This document shows, piece after piece, positions 20,286-28,113 of a stretch of 42,681 bases of DNA (the first letter of the stretch is position 1; every line of letters begins with the position of its first letter). The notes beneath the pieces were generated by a model. That model was given only the letters and a program-made list of their open reading frames with translations. It had not been told where the DNA came from and made no database searches. Source of the DNA: Lachnospiraceae bacterium (lineage in GTDB: Bacteria > Bacillota > Clostridia > Lachnospirales > Lachnospiraceae); contig JAFUMV010000131.1 of the NCBI GenBank assembly GCA_017482485.1, forward strand, positions 1 to 42,681, in the 5' to 3' direction. Both the position numbers and the translations under genes were made by a program.

Positions 20286-20310
20286 TTTCCTCCGCAATGT
20301 GCGGTATAAT
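20281..20310 (+). promoter_or_regulatory. Promoter of the homocysteine methyltransferase gene
   Basis: TTGCTT (20281-20286), an 18-base spacer, TATAAT (20305-20310). The expected transcript start near 20317 leaves a leader of only about 25 bases, too short for an S-box or T-box; no such riboswitch is visible. Confidence 0.6.
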
Positions 20311-20341
20311 GGATAATCATAGTGAGCAGGAGGGTTTATTT

Positions 20342-22102
20342 GTGATTCCACAGACAATACAGGATAAATTAAAAAAACAGAAGCTTATCTTTGACGGTGC
20401 CTTTGGCACTTATTATGCACAGCTATATGATACAAAGGAATTACCGGAGCTTGCAAACACCCTCCATCCGGAGCGCGTGCGCAGGATTCATGAAGAATAT
20501 ATGGAAGCCGGAGCACAGATGATCCGCACCAACACATTTGCCAGCAATACCGTTTCTCTGGACTTGCCCTGGGATGCTGTGGAGGACAATATTCGTCAGG
20601 GATATCGCCTGGCCGCAGAGGCCGCTCAGGAACGGGAGTGTTATGTTGCTGCAGACATCGGGCAGATTCCCTATGAGAATCAGTCGGACCGGACCGATAT
20701 TTCCAGGGAGTATGTGGAAATCTGTCGTGTCTTTTTAGAGGAAGGCGCAAAGATTTTTGTATTTGAAACCTTTTCAAATCCGGAGGATATCTGTGAAGCA
20801 ATCGAGTTTATCGGTGATCGCGCCTTTGTGATCGTGCAGTTTTCCGTAAATCAGTTTGGCTACAGCAATTCCGGGCTGAGTGCCCGCAAGCTGGCGCAGC
20901 GTGCCGAGAGCATGGAAGGGGTGGACGCAGTGGGATTTAACTGCGGTGTAGGTCCCGGACACATGCAGCAGATTCTCAAAAATATCACTTTTTCCGGGAA
21001 AAAGTGGCTGACGGCACTGCCCAATGCAGGATATCCTCAGATCGTCAAAAACCGCATGATTTTTGACAACCGAAACATTGATTATTTTGCCGCAAAGGTA
21101 AGCGATATTGCGGCAGACGGCGCGGATATCGTGGGCGGATGCTGCGGTACAACGCCGGAATACATCTGCAGAATCAGAGAGAAACTCTCTTTTGCACAGC
21201 CCCGGAAAGCAGCGTCTGTATCGGTAAAACATACAGAAAAGGCTCCGGTACAGGATACTTCTTTTTTTGCGGGAAAGGCGGGGAAGAAGCTGATCGCGGT
21301 GGAATTGGCGCCTCCTTTGGGAAGGGATGACGAAAAGCTGATGGATGCGGCTCATTTGCTGTTAAAAAGCGGCGTGGATGTGCTGACATTTCCGGATTCT
21401 CCTTCCGGAAGAACCCGGGCAGATTCCATCCTTATGGCAGAAAAAGTGGCAAGAGAAACCGGAATGTATGTGATGCCTCATATCTGCTGCCGTGACAAGA
21501 ATGCAATTGCCATGCGGTCTCAGCTGTTGGGGGCCTATATTAATCATATCCGGAATTTTTTGGTGATCACGGGTGACCCCATTCCGTCCATGATGCGCAG
21601 CAGCATAAAAAGCGTATTCAACTTTGACTCCGTAGGCCTGATGCGCATTATGAATGATATGAATGAGGAGCATTTTGCCGAGGCTCCCATCTGTTATGGC
21701 GGTGCCATTAATCAGGGGCGCAGAAATCTGGAGGTGGAAATCCAGCGGGTGAAGAAGAAAATGGAAGCAGGAGCGTCATTCTTCCTGACACAGCCGATTT
21801 CCACGGCAGAAGGAGCCGGGCGTGTCAGACGTATCAAACAGGAGACCGGAGCCCGGATTTTATGCGGAATCATGCCTTTTGTCAGCCTGAAAAATGCCGT
21901 ATTCATGAAAAATGAAATGACGGGCATTGATGTGACGGAGGAGGTGCTGTCACGTTATCGTGAGGATATGACGCGGGAAGAAGGCGAACAGGCCGGTATC
22001 CAGCTTGCGAAAGAAATGATGGCGCTTACGGATGACTTTGCGGATGGATATTATTTTTCATTTCCGTTTAACAGGGTAAATATGTTGGAGAAAATTCTCT
22101 GA
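20342..22102 (+). CDS. Bifunctional homocysteine S-methyltransferase / methylenetetrahydrofolate reductase
   Basis: About 586 residues with two enzymes in one chain. The N-terminal ~290 residues are a homocysteine methyltransferase barrel: FDGAFGTYYAQ at the start, GFNCGVGPGHM supplying the first zinc Cys, and GGCCGTTPEYI the Cys pair. The C-terminal ~280 residues are a MetF-like barrel (LITGDP-type segment as FLVITGDPIP, FFLTQP, CGIMPFVS). Together they reduce methylene-THF and methylate homocysteine to methionine in the cytoplasm; this matches the YitJ-like fusion class. I chose GTG 20342 because AGGAGGG (20328-20334) is 7 bases upstream; the frame is open to 20297 but that includes the -10 box. 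It is the first gene of the sulfur amino acid block. Confidence 0.92.
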   Translation: MIPQTIQDKLKKQKLIFDGAFGTYYAQLYDTKELPELANTLHPERVRRIHEEYMEAGAQMIRTNTFASNTVSLDLPWDAVEDNIRQGYRLAAEAAQERECYVAADIGQIPYENQSDRTDISREYVEICRVFLEEGAKIFVFETFSNPEDICEAIEFIGDRAFVIVQFSVNQFGYSNSGLSARKLAQRAESMEGVDAVGFNCGVGPGHMQQILKNITFSGKKWLTALPNAGYPQIVKNRMIFDNRNIDYFAAKVSDIAADGADIVGGCCGTTPEYICRIREKLSFAQPRKAASVSVKHTEKAPVQDTSFFAGKAGKKLIAVELAPPLGRDDEKLMDAAHLLLKSGVDVLTFPDSPSGRTRADSILMAEKVARETGMYVMPHICCRDKNAIAMRSQLLGAYINHIRNFLVITGDPIPSMMRSSIKSVFNFDSVGLMRIMNDMNEEHFAEAPICYGGAINQGRRNLEVEIQRVKKKMEAGASFFLTQPISTAEGAGRVRRIKQETGARILCGIMPFVSLKNAVFMKNEMTGIDVTEEVLSRYREDMTREEGEQAGIQLAKEMMALTDDFADGYYFSFPFNRVNMLEKIL

Positions 22103-22206: not shown

Positions 22207-22235
22207 TTGACACCGTATTAGGGCGGTGCTATAAT
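22207..22235 (+). promoter_or_regulatory. Consensus sigma-70-type promoter of the Cys/Met uptake operon
   Basis: TTGACA (22207-22212), exactly 17 bases, TATAAT (22230-22235). Both boxes are perfect consensus and an A/T-rich stretch lies upstream. The transcript would start about 22242 and run through the leader ORF at 22301. Confidence 0.85.
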
Positions 22236-22251
22236 TCAATCATTCCGCAAA

Positions 22252-22270
22252 ACCTATTAAACAAATAGGT
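22252..22270. promoter_or_regulatory. Candidate operator: 7-base inverted repeat at about +10 to +30
   Basis: ACCTATT (22252-22258), AAACA, AATAGGT (22264-22270). Its position just after the transcription start suits a repressor, and sulfur genes in Firmicutes are often under Rrf2-type CymR control. I cannot match it to a specific consensus. It could also be a small hairpin in the 5' end of the leader RNA. Confidence 0.4.
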
Positions 22271-22300
22271 AGATATGATGAGATGAAAGGAGGAAACACA

Positions 22301-22447
22301 ATGACATTACATAAGAGTTATCTGAACAACGTGACTGACGGCGTTAGGAATTCTTCGATGGGCATGGGCGCGATGCACATGTGCTGTTGTTGTGCTTGCT
22401 GTATGCAGGATGTGCTTCCTCCAGGAGATAAGTTGGGTCAAAGATAG
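22301..22447 (+). CDS. Met/Cys-rich leader peptide (48 aa), probable attenuation sensor
   Basis: A short ORF missed by length-filtered gene finders. It has a perfect AAAGGAGG ribosome site at 22286-22293 and lies directly behind a consensus promoter. Codons 20-35 read MGMGAMHMCCCCACCM: five Met and six Cys in sixteen codons, using TGC and TGT. The rest (MTLHKSYLNNVTDGVRNSS before it, QDVLPPGDKLGQR after) shows no signal peptide or domain. An intrinsic terminator follows 64 bases after the stop, and the transporter operon begins 162 bases after that terminator. Such codon runs before a terminator are the mark of ribosome-mediated attenuation, and polycysteine leader ORFs acting this way are known in mycobacteria. 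A 19-codon ORF (22450-22509) starts right after its stop and ends at the terminator. A metal-binding or modified peptide product is a less likely alternative. Confidence 0.8.
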   Translation: MTLHKSYLNNVTDGVRNSSMGMGAMHMCCCCACCMQDVLPPGDKLGQR

Positions 22448-22534
22448 CCATGAAGATGTTGAATTTTTATGAGGATTCAATGCGGGCAAATGACATAGCT
22501 TACAAATGAGGGGAGCAGAGATGCTCCTTTTTTT
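22413..22534 (+). promoter_or_regulatory. Attenuator: antiterminator strand and intrinsic terminator
   Basis: Terminator: GGAGCA (22512-22517), loop GAGA, TGCTCC (22522-22527), seven T (22528-22534). Competing strand: TGCTTCCT (22413-22420), 11 bases after the last Cys codon, can pair over eight positions (two G-U) with GGGGAGCA (22510-22517), which contains the terminator 5' arm. A ribosome stalled in the Cys run would leave 22413-22420 free and permit the antiterminator. One that reaches the stop at 22447 would cover it and let the terminator form. The pairing is seen in sequence; the switching is inference. Confidence 0.7.
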
Positions 22535-22609
22535 ACGCGATAGGAAAAGTCCAGCGGACTTCCTGTAACGTAAAAAAGCCGCTCCGCTGGGATGCGTACC
22601 CGCACGAGA
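22528..22609. repeat. Dispersed palindromic element R1, copy a
   Basis: Begins in the T run of the attenuator. An imperfect long hairpin (22528-22577, turning at AGTCC-AGC-GGACT) ends in an A run. A GC-rich tail follows with GATGCGTACCCGCACG (22591-22606). The same order (T run, hairpin with AGGAA/TTCCTGT arms, A run, GATGCGTACTCGCGCG tail) recurs at 31377. A further AGAATTTC/GAAATTCT hairpin follows at 22609-22631. The element separates the attenuator from the first transporter gene. Confidence 0.6.
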
Positions 22610-22696
22610 GAATTTCACAGAGCGAAATTCTGTTTATATTATAGTATAGAAGAGACTATGCAAATATGCCCGTCAGGGCAGAAAGGATGAGATGGG

Positions 22697-23356
22697 ATGG
22701 ATACAGAATTTATAGCCGAATATATTCCGCTTTATGTGGAAGCTTCCAGGCTGACAATCAGCATTGGGCTTATTGGTATCGTTCTTTCCTTAATCGTCGG
22801 TCTGCTGATTGCATTTATTCAGTATTTTAAGGTTCCTGTTTTAAGACAAATTGCGGCAGTGTATATTGAACTGTCGAGAAATACTCCCTTACTGGTACAG
22901 TTATTTTTCCTGTATTTCGGTCTGCCGAAAGCCGGCATCAGTATCAGCTCCGAAGGTTGCGCGATTATCGGTCTTTGTTTTCTGGGAGGCAGTTACATGG
23001 CCGAAGCTTTTCGAAGCGGCATCGAATCGGTCGGAAAAGGACAGGAAGAATCCGCTTTGGCTTTGGGATTTCAGAGAAGTCAGGTTGTCAGGTATGTGAT
23101 TTTGCCGCAGGCATTATCCGTTTCGATTCCCGCGTTATGTGCGAACATGAACTTTCTTGTTAAAGAGACATCCGTATTCAGTGTAGTTGCACTGGCAGAT
23201 CTGATGTATGTGGCGAAGGATCTGATCGGTCTTTACTATAAAACAGACGAAGCATTGCTGATGCTGGTCATTTCTTATCTGATCATACTGCTGCCGATTT
23301 CCATACTGGCAGCGCTGCTGGAAAGGAGGCTTCGTTATGCAGAATTTGGGAATTAG
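22697..23356 (+). CDS. Polar amino acid ABC transporter permease 1 (HisM/GlnP type)
   Basis: 219 residues, about five membrane helices. Family marks: SRNTPLLVQLFFLYFGLP near residues 58-75, and the coupling loop GKGQEESALALGFQRSQVVR followed by ILPQALSVSIPALCANMNFLVKETS. It is the first structural gene behind the attenuator and overlaps the next permease by 20 bases. It should form a heterodimeric pore for a cystine- or polar-amino-acid-type importer, judged by family and by the binding domain encoded downstream. Confidence 0.9.
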   Translation: MDTEFIAEYIPLYVEASRLTISIGLIGIVLSLIVGLLIAFIQYFKVPVLRQIAAVYIELSRNTPLLVQLFFLYFGLPKAGISISSEGCAIIGLCFLGGSYMAEAFRSGIESVGKGQEESALALGFQRSQVVRYVILPQALSVSIPALCANMNFLVKETSVFSVVALADLMYVAKDLIGLYYKTDEALLMLVISYLIILLPISILAALLERRLRYAEFGN

Positions 23357-24017
23357 AGTCCTGTTCATGGGAAATAACTTCGCAAGACTTCTGGGAGGCC
23401 TTTGGATTACGATTCGAATCTCACTGATCGCAGTTGCACTTTCCATCGTGTTCGGCATATTGTTGGGAATGCTGATGACGGTAAAAAATCCGATTACGAA
23501 GGCTTTAACAAAGATTTATCTGGAATTTATCCGGATCATGCCCCAGCTGGTGCTTTTGTTTTTGGTTTTCTTCGGGCTGACGAAATCCTTTGGAATCAAT
23601 CTTTCCGGTGAAGTGAGCGCCGTTATCGTATTCACCCTCTGGGGAACAGCCGAGATGGGAGACCTTGTCAGAGGAGCGCTGATCTCGATTCCAAAGCATC
23701 AATATGAAAGCGGAGCGGCAATCGGCCTCACCAAATGGCAGGTTTACTGTTACATCATCATCCCGCAGATTCTGGCAAGACTTGTGCCGCTGGCAATCAA
23801 TCTGACAACGCGAATGATCAAAACCACTTCACTGGTGGCACTCATCGGAGTTGTGGAAGTATTAAAGGTGGCGCAGCAGATTATTGAGGCAAATCGATAC
23901 ACCGTGCCGGATTCGGCATTGTGGATATATGGAACCATCTTTTTCTTATATTTCTTTGCCTGCTGGCCTATTTCACTGGTGGCAAAGAGGTTGGAGAAAA
24001 AATGGAAGACAGCATAG
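23337..24017 (+). CDS. Polar amino acid ABC transporter permease 2 (HisQ/GlnP type)
   Basis: 226 residues with about five helices. Family marks: FIRIMPQLVLLFLVFFGL, coupling loop PKHQYESGAAIGLTKWQVY, and the helix RMIKTTSLVALIGVVE. The start is fixed by AAAGGAGG at 23321-23328, inside the preceding gene, so the two permeases are translationally coupled. It pairs with permease 1 and the ATPase encoded next. Confidence 0.9.
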   Translation: MQNLGIRVLFMGNNFARLLGGLWITIRISLIAVALSIVFGILLGMLMTVKNPITKALTKIYLEFIRIMPQLVLLFLVFFGLTKSFGINLSGEVSAVIVFTLWGTAEMGDLVRGALISIPKHQYESGAAIGLTKWQVYCYIIIPQILARLVPLAINLTTRMIKTTSLVALIGVVEVLKVAQQIIEANRYTVPDSALWIYGTIFFLYFFACWPISLVAKRLEKKWKTA

Positions 24018-24031
24018 ATGAGGTGAATCAT

Positions 24032-24802
24032 ATGGCTGAGCAGTCAATCTTACTGGAAGCAAAAAATATCGTCAAAGATTACGGCCAGGGCAGGGTATTG
24101 GATGATGTTTCCTTACAGATTCATAAAGGAGAAGTCATCGTTTTAATCGGTCCGTCAGGCTGTGGAAAGAGTACTTTCCTTCGATGTATGAACGGATTGG
24201 AGCAGATCCAGTCCGGACAGATCGTTTTAGATGGTGAGGTCATTACAGAAGGCAAAACCGACTGGCCCTCTGTCAGACAAAAGATCGGTATGGTCTTTCA
24301 GAATTATGAATTATTCCCGCACAAGACTGTGCTTGATAATGTGATTCTCGGTCCCGTAAAGGTACAGGGAAGAGATAAAAAAGAAGTGACCAAAGAAGCG
24401 GAGAAACTCCTTGAGAGGGTCGGGCTTCTTGAAAAAAAGGATGCTTTCCCCAGACAATTGTCCGGTGGGCAAAAGCAGCGTGTCGCAATCGTGAGGGCAC
24501 TGATTTTAAAGCCTGAAATCCTGCTGTTTGACGAAGTGACAGCGGCACTTGACCCGGAGATGGTAAGAGAGGTACTGGACGTGATCCTGGAGCTTGCCGC
24601 AGAAGGGTATACGATGTTGATTGTGACACATGAGATGCAGTTTGCAAAGGCAGTTGCAGACAAAATTGTGTTTATCGACGGCGGAAAAATTGTGGAAAGT
24701 GACACGCCGGAGAAATTTTTTACCCAGCCAAAGACCGATCGTGCAAGACGGTTTTTGAATACATTTATTTATGAAAAGGAAACAGGAGGAGAAAAATTAT
24801 GA
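24032..24802 (+). CDS. Polar amino acid ABC transporter ATP-binding protein
   Basis: About 256 residues, GlnQ/HisP/TcyC class. Walker A GPSGCGKST, Q-loop MVFQNYELFPHKTVLDNV (about residues 88-105), signature LSGGQKQR, Walker B ILLFDEVTAALDPE (Val-Thr-Ala where most have Pro-Thr-Ser), switch VTHEM. I chose ATG 24032, 14 bases after the permease stop, with AGGTG at 24021-24025; ATG 24002 would overlap the permease. The stop overlaps the next start as ATGA, coupling it to the fused lipoprotein. Confidence 0.92.
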   Translation: MAEQSILLEAKNIVKDYGQGRVLDDVSLQIHKGEVIVLIGPSGCGKSTFLRCMNGLEQIQSGQIVLDGEVITEGKTDWPSVRQKIGMVFQNYELFPHKTVLDNVILGPVKVQGRDKKEVTKEAEKLLERVGLLEKKDAFPRQLSGGQKQRVAIVRALILKPEILLFDEVTAALDPEMVREVLDVILELAAEGYTMLIVTHEMQFAKAVADKIVFIDGGKIVESDTPEKFFTQPKTDRARRFLNTFIYEKETGGEKL

Positions 24803-26469
24803 AAAAATTCATGACACTATTGTTATCATTTGTCGTAGCACTGGGTGTTTTCACGGGATGCGGCAAGACAGAAGATGCTTCTGCAAACAGCGAAGCAGCT
24901 CAGAGCACCGCAGCAGAGTCAGAAGCTGCTGAAGAAAGCGGTGAAAAGGCAGTATACCGTACTCTTGACGAGATTAAAGAGAGCGGCACAGTTAAAATCG
25001 GTGTTTTCAGCGATAAGAATCCATTCGGCTATGTAGATGAAAATGGTGATTATCAGGGTTATGATGTTTACTTTGCTGAGCGTATCGGTCAGGATCTGGG
25101 CACCGCTGTAGAGTATGTTTCCACAGATGCAGCAAACCGTGTTGAATATCTGAAAACCGGTAAAGTTGATATCATTCTTGCAAACTTTACTGTAACAGAA
25201 GAAAGAGCAGAGTCCGTTGATTTCGCTCTTCCTTATATGAAAGTGGCGCTGGGCGTTGTTTCTCCCGATTCCGCACTCATAACATCCGCTGATCAGTTAA
25301 ACGGCAAAAAGCTGATTGTTACAAAGGGAACAACCGCTGAGACATTTTTCACAGAAAATTATCCTGACATTGAGCTTGTAAAATTTGATCAGTATACAGA
25401 AGCTTACAACGCATTGCTGGACGGCCGCGGAGATGCATTTTCCACCGATAACACAGAAGTTTTAGCATGGGCATTACAGAATGAAGGATTCAGCGTTGGT
25501 ATCGAGTCCATCGGTAACCTGGACACCATCGCACCTGCAGTATCCAAGGGCAATGAAACCTTACTGAACTGGATCAATGATGAGATTGTTGCACTGGCAG
25601 ATGAAGAGTTCTTCCATGCAGATTACAAAGAAACACTGGAGCCTGTATATGGTTCTTCCGTTGATATTGACAGCCTGGTTGTAGAAGGCGGTGTTATTGA
25701 AGAAACAGCAGCAGTAGAAGAAGAGGCAGCAGAAGTTAAAGGAACTATCACAGTAGCAGCAAGCGCAACACCTCATGCAGAAATTCTGGAGCAGGCAAAA
25801 CCTCTGCTGGCAAAAGAAGGATGGGAACTTGAAGTAACAGTATTTGATGATTATGTTCAGCCGAACCTGGTTGTGGAAAGCGGCGAGTTTGATGCTAACT
25901 ATTTCCAGCACATTCCTTATCTTGAAAGCTTTAACGAAGAGAAGGGTACACACCTTGTAAATGCAGGCGGCATTCACTATGAGCCCTTCGGAATTTATCC
26001 CGGCACAAAGAGCTCTCTTGATGATCTGGCAGAGGGTGACACAATTGCGGTTCCCAATGATACAACAAATGAAGCCAGAGCATTATTACTGTTACAGGAT
26101 AACGGTGTGATCACATTAAAGGATGGCGCAGGTCTTAAGGCAACCATTAATGATATTGAAGAAAATCCTAAGAATATCACAATTCAGGAGCTTGAGGCTG
26201 CTCAGTTACCCAGAGTAAAGGATGAAGTTGCTTTCGTAGTATTAAACGGCAACTATGCACTTGAAGCAGGTTTCTCTGTAGGAAAAGATTCCATCGCTTA
26301 TGAAAAAGCGGATTCCGAGGCTGCCAAGACATATGTGAATGTGATCGCAGTGAAGGAAGGCAATGAAGATAGCGAAGCAATTCAGACACTGGTAGATGTA
26401 TTAAAATCTGACGAGATCACAGCATATATTAACGAAACATATGATGGGGCGGTAATCCCGTTTAACTAA
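24799..26469 (+). CDS. Two-headed substrate-binding lipoprotein: polar amino acid (SBP_bac_3) domain fused to MetQ/NlpA domain
   Basis: 556 residues, about twice the usual receptor size. A lipoprotein signal ends in FTGC (Cys about 21), followed by a Ser/Ala/Glu linker. Residues about 52-285 form a family 3 polar-amino-acid/cystine-type receptor (LDEIKESGTVKIGVFSDKNP, GYDVYFAERIGQDLG, ANFTVTEERAESVDFALPY). An acidic linker (about 290-313, VIEETAAVEEEAAEVKG) joins it to a complete MetQ/NlpA-type receptor (about 314-556: ITVAASATPHAEILEQ, FDANYFQHIPYL, AVPNDTTNEARALLLLQ). The second half has no signal or lipobox of its own, and no frameshift or internal start is needed, so this is a true fusion. 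Genes for a polar-amino-acid transporter lie just upstream and MetN/MetI just downstream. One anchored protein could therefore feed two importers. Confidence 0.9.
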   Translation: MKKFMTLLLSFVVALGVFTGCGKTEDASANSEAAQSTAAESEAAEESGEKAVYRTLDEIKESGTVKIGVFSDKNPFGYVDENGDYQGYDVYFAERIGQDLGTAVEYVSTDAANRVEYLKTGKVDIILANFTVTEERAESVDFALPYMKVALGVVSPDSALITSADQLNGKKLIVTKGTTAETFFTENYPDIELVKFDQYTEAYNALLDGRGDAFSTDNTEVLAWALQNEGFSVGIESIGNLDTIAPAVSKGNETLLNWINDEIVALADEEFFHADYKETLEPVYGSSVDIDSLVVEGGVIEETAAVEEEAAEVKGTITVAASATPHAEILEQAKPLLAKEGWELEVTVFDDYVQPNLVVESGEFDANYFQHIPYLESFNEEKGTHLVNAGGIHYEPFGIYPGTKSSLDDLAEGDTIAVPNDTTNEARALLLLQDNGVITLKDGAGLKATINDIEENPKNITIQELEAAQLPRVKDEVAFVVLNGNYALEAGFSVGKDSIAYEKADSEAAKTYVNVIAVKEGNEDSEAIQTLVDVLKSDEITAYINETYDGAVIPFN

Positions 26470-26582: not shown

Positions 26583-27332
26583 ATGGAACCAATTATTCGC
26601 GTTGAGAATATCAGCAAGACTTTTCAGGCGAATAACGGACAGGTGGAAGCAGTCAAAAATATCAGCTTTTCGATTGAAAAAGGAGATATTTTCGGAATTA
26701 TCGGACTATCCGGCGCCGGTAAAAGTACACTGGTTCGATGTTTGAATTTGCTTGAAAAACAAAGTGAGGGAAATATTTATATCGATGGAAAAAATCTGAT
26801 GAAGCTTTCGTCAAAGGAGCTGCGTAAGCAGCGCCAGGATATCGGTATGATTTTCCAGCATTTCAATTTGCTGATGCAGAGAAATGTAGTGGATAATATC
26901 TGCTTTCCTTTGGAGATTGCAGGAGTCGGCAGAAAACAGGCCAAGAAGCGTGCGTTGGAACTCCTTGAAACGGTCGGTCTTACTGAAAAAGCCAGGGCAT
27001 ATCCGGCTCAGCTGTCCGGAGGCCAGAAACAGCGCGTGGCGATTGCAAGAGTTCTTGCGAATAATCCTAAGATTTTACTTTGTGATGAAGCAACGAGTGC
27101 ACTTGATCCGCAGACGACAAAGTCGATTCTGAATCTGCTAAAAGAGATTAATCAAAAGTATGGAATTACAATTGTTGTGATCACTCATGAGATGGCAGTC
27201 GTTCGGGAAATCTGCTCTAAGGTAGCCGTCCTTGACCATGGAAGGCTGGTAGAAGAAGGGACCGTTGAAGCACTGTTTGGGGCGCCGAAGACGGAGGAAG
27301 CAAAGCAATTGATTCTCAATACATATGCGTGA
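26583..27332 (+). CDS. metN: Methionine-type ABC transporter ATP-binding protein, short form
   Basis: 249 residues. Walker A GLSGAGKST, Q-loop MIFQHFNLLMQRNVVDNI (MetN-typical), signature LSGGQKQR, Walker B ILLCDEATSALDPQTT, switch VITHEM. The FNLL and SALDPQTT segments separate MetN from GlnQ-type ATPases. It ends shortly after the nucleotide-binding domain; E. coli-type MetN has about 340 residues with a C-terminal ACT-like domain that binds methionine for transinhibition, absent here. The start follows GGGAGGATGAAAA. It works with MetI and probably the MetQ half of the fused receptor. Confidence 0.9.
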   Translation: MEPIIRVENISKTFQANNGQVEAVKNISFSIEKGDIFGIIGLSGAGKSTLVRCLNLLEKQSEGNIYIDGKNLMKLSSKELRKQRQDIGMIFQHFNLLMQRNVVDNICFPLEIAGVGRKQAKKRALELLETVGLTEKARAYPAQLSGGQKQRVAIARVLANNPKILLCDEATSALDPQTTKSILNLLKEINQKYGITIVVITHEMAVVREICSKVAVLDHGRLVEEGTVEALFGAPKTEEAKQLILNTYA

Positions 27333-27352
27333 GGATGAAGAGGTGGATGATT

Positions 27353-28015
27353 ATGTTTGATGAAACAATAAGAAACATGTTGATAGATGGAACATGGGCA
27401 ACCCTTTATATGACACTGGTGTCCTCTTTGTTCGGATATGTTGTCGGACTGCCGCTGGGAATTATTCTTGCTATCACTGACAAAGAAGGGATTAAACCAA
27501 ATGCGGTTATTTACAAAATTCTTGATTTTGTTGTGAACCTGACAAGAAGTATTCCGTTCTTAATTCTGCTGATCATGGTAATGCCTTTGACAAAGGCCAT
27601 TGTGGGACAAAGCTATGGATCCACAGCCACCATTGTGCCGCTGACGATAGCGGCTGCACCATTTATCGGACGCATGGTGGAATCGTCATTAAAGGAAGTG
27701 GACAAGGGAGTCATTGAAGCGGCCCAGAGCATGGGAGCCGGTACCTTTACCATTATTTATAAAGTTCTTTTGGGAGAGGCAAGAACCTCGCTTTTGGTCG
27801 GAGTAACGATTGCTGTCGGAACGATCCTGGGCTATTCTGCAATGTCCGGTGTAGTCGGAGGCGGCGGACTGGGCGATATAGCGGTTCGTTATGGTTATTA
27901 TCGTTATGAAACCGACATTATGTTTGTTACCATCATCATATTGGTTGTTCTGGTTCAGATTCTGCAGGGAATCGGTATGATGCTGTCCAAAAAGCTGGAT
28001 CGCAGGCGCGCATAA
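27353..28015 (+). CDS. metI: Methionine-type ABC transporter permease
   Basis: About 220 residues with five membrane helices, the usual MetI size. Marks: GTWATLYMTLVSSLFGYVVG near the start, TRSIPFLILLIMVMP, and the coupling loop EVDKGVIEAAQSMGAGTFTI, then SGVVGGGGLGDIAVRYGYYRY, which is highly typical of MetI. The frame is open from GTG 27329, overlapping metN, with ATGs at 27335, 27347 and 27353. I chose 27353 because AGGTGG (27341-27346) is 6 bases upstream. It completes the second importer of the block. Confidence 0.92.
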   Translation: MFDETIRNMLIDGTWATLYMTLVSSLFGYVVGLPLGIILAITDKEGIKPNAVIYKILDFVVNLTRSIPFLILLIMVMPLTKAIVGQSYGSTATIVPLTIAAAPFIGRMVESSLKEVDKGVIEAAQSMGAGTFTIIYKVLLGEARTSLLVGVTIAVGTILGYSAMSGVVGGGGLGDIAVRYGYYRYETDIMFVTIIILVVLVQILQGIGMMLSKKLDRRRA

Positions 28016-28043: not shown

Positions 28044-28113
28044 GATACTGTGGCCGCTGGAATGGCATAAGTTTGCAAAACTGAAGTTGTTGGTTCGAGT
28101 CCAACCGGTATCG
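28044..28113 (+). tRNA. tRNA-Cys(GCA)-like sequence, atypical
   Basis: A full cloverleaf can be drawn. Acceptor GATACTG (28044-28050) pairs with CGGTATC (28106-28112), seven pairs with one G-U. D arm GCCG/TGGC (28053-28056, 28063-28066) has a short loop with GG. The anticodon stem TAAGT/ACTGA has one mismatch, and the loop TTGCAAA (28073-28079) gives anticodon GCA with T33 and A37. The T arm GTTGG/CCAAC (28089-28093, 28101-28105) has loop TTCGAGT. Oddities: the discriminator is G rather than the U73 expected for Cys tRNAs, position 14 is not A, the D loop is short, and no CCA is encoded. It starts 28 bases after metI, on the same strand. It may be a diverged tRNA-Cys, a pseudo-tRNA, or a regulatory tRNA mimic. 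Confidence 0.6.

Follow-up and report, generated by a model that had tools for sequence, protein, structure and literature searches.

Does the short open reading frame (ORF), rich in cysteine and methionine codons, that precedes an amino acid uptake operon in a Lachnospiraceae genome control that operon by attenuation, and does it read the supply of one sulfur amino acid or of two? The window (the whole 42,681-nucleotide stretch of DNA that was analyzed, contig JAFUMV010000131.1) carries this leader region at 22207-22534. The original prediction held that ribosome stalling at scarce Cys-tRNA, and perhaps at scarce Met-tRNA, keeps a terminator from forming. The evidence set out below makes a ribosome-mediated transcription attenuator that senses Cys-tRNA, and probably Met-tRNA too, the likely explanation. 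The grounds for this reading are the codons, the gene content, the recurrence, the pairing potential and the compensatory changes; we infer translation, stalling, read-through, the substrates and the sensing of methionine as well as cysteine.

Organization of the leader region

All features of the region lie on the plus strand. The consensus promoter that had been claimed is present as a sigma-70-type sequence, TTGACA-17-TATAAT, at 22207-22235, with 12 of 12 matches and a TG ahead of the second hexamer, and it aligns with the promoters of the leaderless relatives L054, L056, and L060. The Shine-Dalgarno (SD) sequence AAAGGAGG at 22286-22293 is spaced 7 nt from the ATG at 22301, which opens a leader ORF of 48 codons (22301-22447) ending in TAG at 22445-22447. 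Exactly as described, codons 20 to 35 (22358-22405) encode the putative sensor stretch MGMGAMHMCCCCACCM, with five Met codons (20, 22, 25, 27, and 35) and six Cys codons (28 to 31, 33, and 34; 22382-22402). Fourteen codons separate the last Cys codon from the stop, and the peptide matched no Pfam or NCBIfam family at an E value of ≤0.001.

Segment 2, the candidate antiterminator strand, lies within the ORF at 22411-22424, 9 to 22 nt 3' of the last Cys codon, and the leader stop codon is 20 nt past it. A spacer stem at 22429-22502, with an inner hairpin at 22459-22480, is predicted between segments 2 and 3. The intrinsic terminator expected after the ORF was found at 22508-22531 as a predicted fold of -12.9 kcal/mol, whose 5' arm (segment 3) spans 22508-22517 and whose 3' arm (22522-22531) leads into a T-run; a simple terminator scanner called this hairpin on the minus strand only. 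The pairing proposed between 22413-22420 and 22510-22517 is also present and is in fact longer, reaching from approximately 22411-22424 to 22508-22518 at -13.2 kcal/mol. Control of the window by a T-box or SAM riboswitch was considered and rejected, as an Rfam search of the window returned no riboswitch or T-box at the gathering score (T-box, RF00230; SAM, RF00162). The SAM riboswitch model has one match elsewhere in the genome.

Genes downstream and upstream of the leader

The genes behind the leader bear out, by family, the claim of an amino acid uptake operon, with cystine-type and methionine-type importer genes. Two amino acid ABC permeases, the first of the cystine/glutamine type (22697-23356) and the second at 23337-24017, both match PF00528 and TIGR01726 above cut-off. 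They are followed by a GlnQ/TcyN-like ABC ATPase (23921-24802; PF00005, with the best NCBIfam matches below their cut-offs), whose true start is probably later than the listed GTG, as the best NCBIfam matches begin near residue 45, and by a fused binding protein with SBP_bac_3 and NlpA/MetQ parts (24799-26469; PF00497 and PF03180 above cut-off). A MetN-like ATPase (26583-27332; best NCBIfam match TIGR02314, below cut-off) and a MetI permease (27329-28015; NF008049 above cut-off) complete the importer genes. Judged by these families, the operon would combine a cystine-type importer half with a methionine-type half. Upstream, at 20297-22102, is a homocysteine S-methyltransferase/methylenetetrahydrofolate reductase fusion gene (NF006396 above cut-off).

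A second, atypical tRNA-Cys(GCA) gene (28044-28113, same strand) begins 28 nt downstream of metI, where it would close the operon, and is a candidate for its last gene, with putative cotranscription. It is divergent: its discriminator base is G and its bit score is 46, compared to T and 66 for another tRNA-Cys on contig C138 (tRNA typing covered 31 of the 42 tRNA matches of the genome). Of 199 other family genomes, 7 have relatives of this tRNA, which adjoin metK (L279 and L280), radical-SAM genes (L275 to L277 and L281), or a peptidase gene (L278). A scan of 55 related operon loci detected no tRNA-Cys. Between the terminator and the first gene lies a copy of a dispersed repeat (22537-22606, plus strand), which is probably incidental. 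There are 16 further matches to 22536-22662 in the same genome, 12 of them overlapping 22537-22606, and six of the 16 lie within 250 nt of a contig start.

Recurrence of cysteine-rich leaders in related operons

The 48-residue leader peptide was searched against 299 family genomes, its own included, and beyond itself gave only weak matches, in 87 genomes at an E value of ≤10. No clear homologue was found in the 298 other genomes (best E value 1.4e-4, with stop codons inside), and among 30 peptide-match loci the operon permeases lay within about 1.5 kb at the window's own locus alone. We therefore used the first permease of the operon as the anchor. Its best identity in 12 other genomes of the window's genus was 36%. 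Eighty loci from a named genome collection, 80 from further genomes (from whose list G112, 12 other places, and those repeated or already in the set were left aside), and the window gave 161 loci, of which 155, including the window, remained after removal of six duplicates. One of the 155 was too short, so that leader and palindrome counts use 154.

A leader was defined as an SD-led ORF of 8 to 80 codons within 450 nt upstream and with at least three Cys codons in seven. Such leaders were found in 37 of 154 upstream regions, compared to 4 of 154 reverse strands and 44 of 1,540 shuffles. The cysteine codons of the window were thus seen to recur in orthologous leaders, with at least four Cys in seven codons in 27 of 154 regions (0/154 reverse strands and 4/1,540 shuffles); some of the five doubtful candidates named next are still counted within the 37 and the 27. 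The search yielded 41 candidates, as the rule also let in CC pairs, and five doubtful ones (L078, L169, L186, L198, and L200) were set aside. A terminator was predicted before the first gene for 33 of the 36 retained leaders under a loose rule. Under a strict rule, with the terminator no more than 220 nt past the Cys cluster, it was predicted for 28 of the 36, compared to 6 of 360 shuffles; the strict rule found a terminator in the 200 nt upstream of 16 of 106 leaderless genes.

Since a leader that regulates an operon should precede its first gene, orthologous operons that begin with the methionine module were examined separately at that place. There are 24 of these, two of them cut off ahead of the first gene, which left 22. 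A Cys/Met leader preceded the first gene in 12 of the 22 (0/22 reverse strands and 15/440 shuffles) under a rule that itself counts Met. With a rule based on Cys only, leaders were found in 10 of 22 operons compared to 18 of 440 shuffles, and in 7 of 22 compared to 0 of 440 when at least four Cys were required. In these leaders Met and Cys alternate, as in TMCMCMMCCCA, MMCMCCCRM, NMCMCMCRM, and SCMSMSMMMCTMCVIMCCGM. Leaders were retained at 48 of the 155 loci in all. Their peptides have in common Cys, often Met, and their place, and share a motif among close relatives only.

For the first 80 loci, T-box and SAM regular expressions gave no match in the sequence ahead of the first permease, and the T-box expression gave none in the 155 loci; its two matches before methionine-first operons (L214 and L224) were not confirmed by Rfam. 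An Rfam scan of 17 loci found a single T-box, at L080, and a single SAM riboswitch, at L125; these do not lie directly upstream of the permease. Four consecutive Cys codons occur 35 times in the window's own genome. Among the 30 of these loci inspected, short SD-led ORFs besides that of the window were seen at L237, L242, L257, and L258/L259, and only L237 also has a predicted terminator, which is located inside the next ORF.

Pairing between the antiterminator strand and the terminator

Complementarity between a 22-nt segment and the 5' arm of the same locus's terminator peaked 8 to 12 nt past the Cys cluster, with a peak height of -2.4 ± 0.7 kcal/mol over a cross-locus null across 25 loci. 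Near-copies were dropped here much as in the folds described below. Against shuffled arms the Fisher P value was 1.6e-4, with 6 of 25 loci below 0.05, compared to 0.09 and 0.08 for two upstream control segments. A smaller second peak, of -1.5 to -1.8 ± 0.6 kcal/mol over the 25 loci, was observed about 56 to 68 nt upstream of where the Cys cluster ends.

We also folded partial transcripts, in which the RNA ends ahead of the terminator 3' arm. In the window, segment 2 occupied 0.89 of the terminator 5' arm, compared to 0.20 in shuffled sequences, and 0 of 100 shuffles reached as high a value (P = 0.010). The 25 nonredundant loci, 33 less eight near-copies, averaged 0.51 compared to 0.32 (Fisher, 1.8e-4; Wilcoxon, 0.006), with seven individually at P values of ≤0.05 and 12 scoring below 0.5. 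For ten methionine-first leaders, left after two of the 12 without a terminator were dropped and with near relatives not collapsed, the values were 0.88 and 0.31 (Fisher, 9e-8; 7 of 10 individually). In the wider set of loci, the low value of 0.11 for L213 was scored against an earlier hairpin; the later hairpin of this locus matches segment 2 at 10 of 11 positions. Little or no pairing was found for L092 (0.00) and for L105, L118, L119, L122 to L124, L126, L127, and L149 (0.00 to 0.14). The pairing in relatives, which had been put forward as a check on the prediction, is borne out in the window, the 25-locus set, and the ten methionine-first operons and fails in L092 and the L105/L118/L122 types, where either the geometry differs or our choice of segment misses the pairing. 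The nine loci from L105 to L149, among them those of Lacrimispora xylanisolvens DSM 3808 (L119) and L. algidixylanolytica SPL73 (L122), carry Lacrimispora-type and similar Cys leaders and have strong terminators.

Cruder tests separated the pairing less well. Swap shuffles of the short segments, a null that we judged too weak, gave 3 of 33 loci below 0.05 (Fisher P = 0.05), and the window's own pairing had P values of 0.19 with swap shuffles and 0.07 with shuffled arms. In a crude gapless 11-mer scan the window scored 16 and was not separated from the null (mean 15.2, maximum 18); the null maximum was exceeded in 4 of 18 loci (L219, L222, L227, and L229). Within the 12 loci that have a TCCC-like core in segment 2, position 7 was paired in all 12 (seven G-C, four A-T, and one G-T) and position 9 in all except one mismatch (seven G-C, two A-T, and two G-T). 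These are compensatory changes inside a coding stretch, in loci that partly share ancestry. The residues encoded after the Cys codons are often SRA, SRT, or SQA (L213, L219, L220, L222, L223, L227, L229, L230, L091, L148, and L160), apparently because this stretch is the antiterminator strand, so that the constraint would be on the RNA.

The pairing depends on where a ribosome would stand. With the RNA 3' end at 22519 to 22523, it was present in the window for ribosome edges from 22382 to 22412 and was gone once the RNA was free only from 22430 on. At full-length equilibrium the terminator mostly wins, so that the antiterminator must win by timing. The probability of the terminator was 0.32 at edge 22402, 0.42 to 0.45 at 22246 to 22282, and >0.6 at the other sampled positions. 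It was thus weakest near edge 22400-22403, the best geometry for antitermination and one located at the Cys codons; from the usual footprint, we take this edge to be that of a ribosome waiting on approximately Cys codons 29 to 31. With stalls at Met20 to Met25 the edge would lie more to the 5' side, a position from which the pairing is less well maintained, and the Met codons upstream of Cys28 are more poorly placed than the Cys codons.

Promoter palindrome and evolutionary history

Shortly after the -10 hexamer, at 22253-22269 on the plus strand, lies the palindrome CCTATTAAACAAATAGG. It has the consensus CCTAYTN5ARTAGG, and many promoters of clostridial cystine importers carry it near their -10. 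Similar palindromes (score of at least 9 of 10) were present in 47 of 154 upstream regions, compared to 5 of 154 shuffled ones, with leaderless operons included. The palindrome is probably an operator, for which a CymR/Rrf2-type repressor is a candidate, and it suggests a second, repressor-based layer of control. CymR-type control has been proposed for a cystine importer of Clostridium acetobutylicum, whose predicted site lies over 300 nt upstream, according to the accessible part of that paper (PMC3828012).

On a quick permease tree the leader state needs 28 changes, and the leaders of methionine operons need at least eight on well-supported branches. The window falls in a supported clade of nine rows, and the other eight, its closest orthologues, have no leader; L054, L056, and L060 have the promoter and palindrome as in the window and then the permease at once. 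Either the leader was gained in the window's lineage or it was lost several times. From this scatter, switches of the kind seem to be gained or lost with ease.

Proposed mechanism and alternative explanations

In the mechanism that we favor, the leader ORF would be translated from its strong ribosome site, and scarce cysteinyl-tRNA, and probably methionyl-tRNA too, would stall the ribosome within the Met/Cys run. The stalled ribosome would leave the segment directly ahead of it, segment 2 (22411-22424), free to pair with the terminator 5' arm (22508-22518), and RNA polymerase would continue into the genes of the cystine- and methionine-type importers. With both amino acids plentiful, the ribosome would run over segment 2, the terminator would form, and transcription would stop. 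Segment 2 would be masked by a moving ribosome rather than by a terminating one. The probable benefit is that cells switch on uptake when cysteine or methionine runs short.

That methionine is read as well was studied through the cores of the leaders, defined as the Cys cluster plus six codons on each side. The 48 leaders less ten near-copies comprise 18 with methionine uptake genes and 20 others. The Met codons in leaders of relatives, the other feature whose conservation had been called for, tend to follow these genes: the mean was 3.6 Met per core with methionine uptake genes and 1.7 without (Mann-Whitney P = 3.1e-5, kinship ignored). The difference held when the others were restricted to loci with at least 5.5 kb visible (18 and 18 leaders; P = 7.8e-5) and in permease-first operons alone, which were found by one rule (6 and 20 leaders; P = 0.003). 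A pairwise tree test of the link had four usable pairs, none contrary, and no power. Met made up 65 of 235 non-Cys core residues with methionine uptake genes and 34 of 247 without them, compared to 156 of 5,893 residues in the remaining small ORFs of these regions. Five leaders (L138, L095, L092, L109, and L154) have at least three Met with no methionine uptake genes detected, and the link is therefore a tendency. We consider the sensing of methionine, specifically, to be reasonably probable, and less certain than that of cysteine.

The main alternative is that the attenuator senses cysteine only and that its Met codons either have no role or help with initiation or spacing. This is possible but rather doubtful. 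Cys is the constant element, the cores of L086, L093, L105, L114, and L115 contain no Met, and the window's best antitermination geometry falls at the Cys codons; however, Met in the cores of methionine operons is about ten times the background, is interleaved with Cys (MCMCM and MMCMCCC), and follows methionine uptake genes. Alternatively, a nascent peptide rich in Cys, Met, and His, all of them metal ligands, might stall the ribosome by binding a metal or reacting with oxidants or thiols, and a copper-responsive upstream ORF has been described in what is accessible of one report (PMC9426467). We regard this as improbable, since what the peptides share is Cys/Met content and, beyond close relatives, no motif, the families matched downstream are those of amino acid importers rather than of metal transporters, and Met content follows methionine importers. 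It is still harder to see the small protein itself as functional, for example as a metallothionein-like product for which the terminator merely sets the dose: the promoter and SD sequence are good, but the peptide has neither a family match nor a clear homologue in the other family genomes, and the leader state changes 28 times on the tree. A chance ORF with a chance pairing, which would agree with the lack of a leader in the nearest orthologues and with the weak tests for the window's own pairing (P = 0.19, P = 0.07, and the 11-mer scan), is very improbable given the recurrence, pairing, and terminator controls and the leaders at 48 of 155 loci.

Extending the attenuator reading, we lean slightly toward the view that dual-input attenuators, each a single short leader that reads both sulfur amino acids, form a class that is widespread in Clostridia, has evolved repeatedly, and acts at the level of transcription, with the mix of Cys and Met codons tuned to the cargo of the importer. 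A codon mix that tracks importer cargo would help to predict transporter substrates. Such a class would work where T-boxes and S-boxes are the phylum's described means, and it would imply tight timing between ribosome and polymerase on these leaders in Clostridia.

Comparison with known attenuation systems

In the trp and his attenuators of Escherichia coli, stall codons in a short leader ORF decide between alternative hairpins of segments 2-3 and 3-4. The ilv and thr leaders each read several amino acids, and a ribosome that has reached the stop of trpL sits over segment 2. The window resembles the trp/his type in its short SD-led ORF, predicted to be translated, its operon-matched codon run, its terminator, and its alternative antiterminator. 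It differs in the amino acids, the taxon, the importer genes, and the position of segment 2 inside the ORF before the stop.

Cysteine leaders themselves have precedents. In Actinobacteria, Cys leader ORFs precede sulfur amino acid genes and, in the portion of the paper available, are described as having no conserved terminator hairpin (Seliverstov 2005; PMC1262725), and polycysteine attenuators of mycobacteria were reported by Canestrari in 2020, in a paper known to us through a citation (PMC13236596) and whose title calls the ORFs leaderless. As far as these sources extend, the likeness is a run of Cys in a short ORF before sulfur genes, read as a sensor of cysteine supply. The window is unlike this type in its SD-led ORF, intrinsic terminator, antiterminator pairing, Met codons, importer operon, and occurrence in Clostridia, and the actinobacterial Cys run is described as near the stop, whereas 14 codons separate the two here. 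Assignment of the window to the mycobacterial polycysteine attenuators was rejected, as its ORF is SD-led, the Cys run is 14 codons off the stop, and a terminator is present. Closer in design is uORFC-8-2 before cysS in Rhodobacterales, with tandem Cys codons, a terminator, and proposed ribosome-mediated attenuation (PMC8632094). That upstream ORF shares these three elements with the window but has two Cys codons, precedes a tRNA-synthetase gene, and belongs to alphaproteobacteria, with no Met mentioned in the accessible text.

Few descriptions of classical amino acid leader attenuation exist for Firmicutes. A His leader before hisS/hisZ in bacilli was presented as new in a 2010 survey, whose authors, in the part available, name ermC as the one leader-peptide system known to them from beyond Proteobacteria and Actinobacteria (PMC2965389). 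Like the window, it is an amino acid leader peptide in Firmicutes, there replacing a T-box; unlike the window, and from the same partial text, it concerns histidine and synthetase-type genes. The fthC upstream ORF of Streptococcus is likewise a Firmicutes leader ORF with a suggested link to methionine supply, which in the available excerpt operates through initiator tRNA and start-codon use (PMC11109978), not a run of Met codons, and concerns another gene. Antibiotic-responsive leaders such as bmrB are also described in Firmicutes, in the passages at hand (PMC4191407). For clostridial cysteine control, the accessible literature describes the T-box and S-box (PMC2940859) and CymR (PMC3828012). 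These serve the same physiological task, and the T-box and S-box likewise terminate transcription prematurely, but by that account their RNA binds tRNA or SAM directly, without a leader ORF, and none was found in the window.

RNA polymerase of Bacillus subtilis is said to outpace the lead ribosome, in the available part of a paper (PMC9226507) citing Johnson 2020. If the leaders described here work, ribosome and polymerase in Clostridia must stay near enough to each other for attenuation of the classical kind. The open-access literature searched, as far as its texts were available and with most subscription papers outside it, contained no Cys, Met, or Cys/Met leader attenuator in Clostridia, in agreement with the suggestion that a leader reading two sulfur amino acids in this class is new. 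Compared with the known systems, the mechanism is classical, and the pairing of cysteine with methionine, the place in Clostridia, and the recurrence look new in the literature searched.
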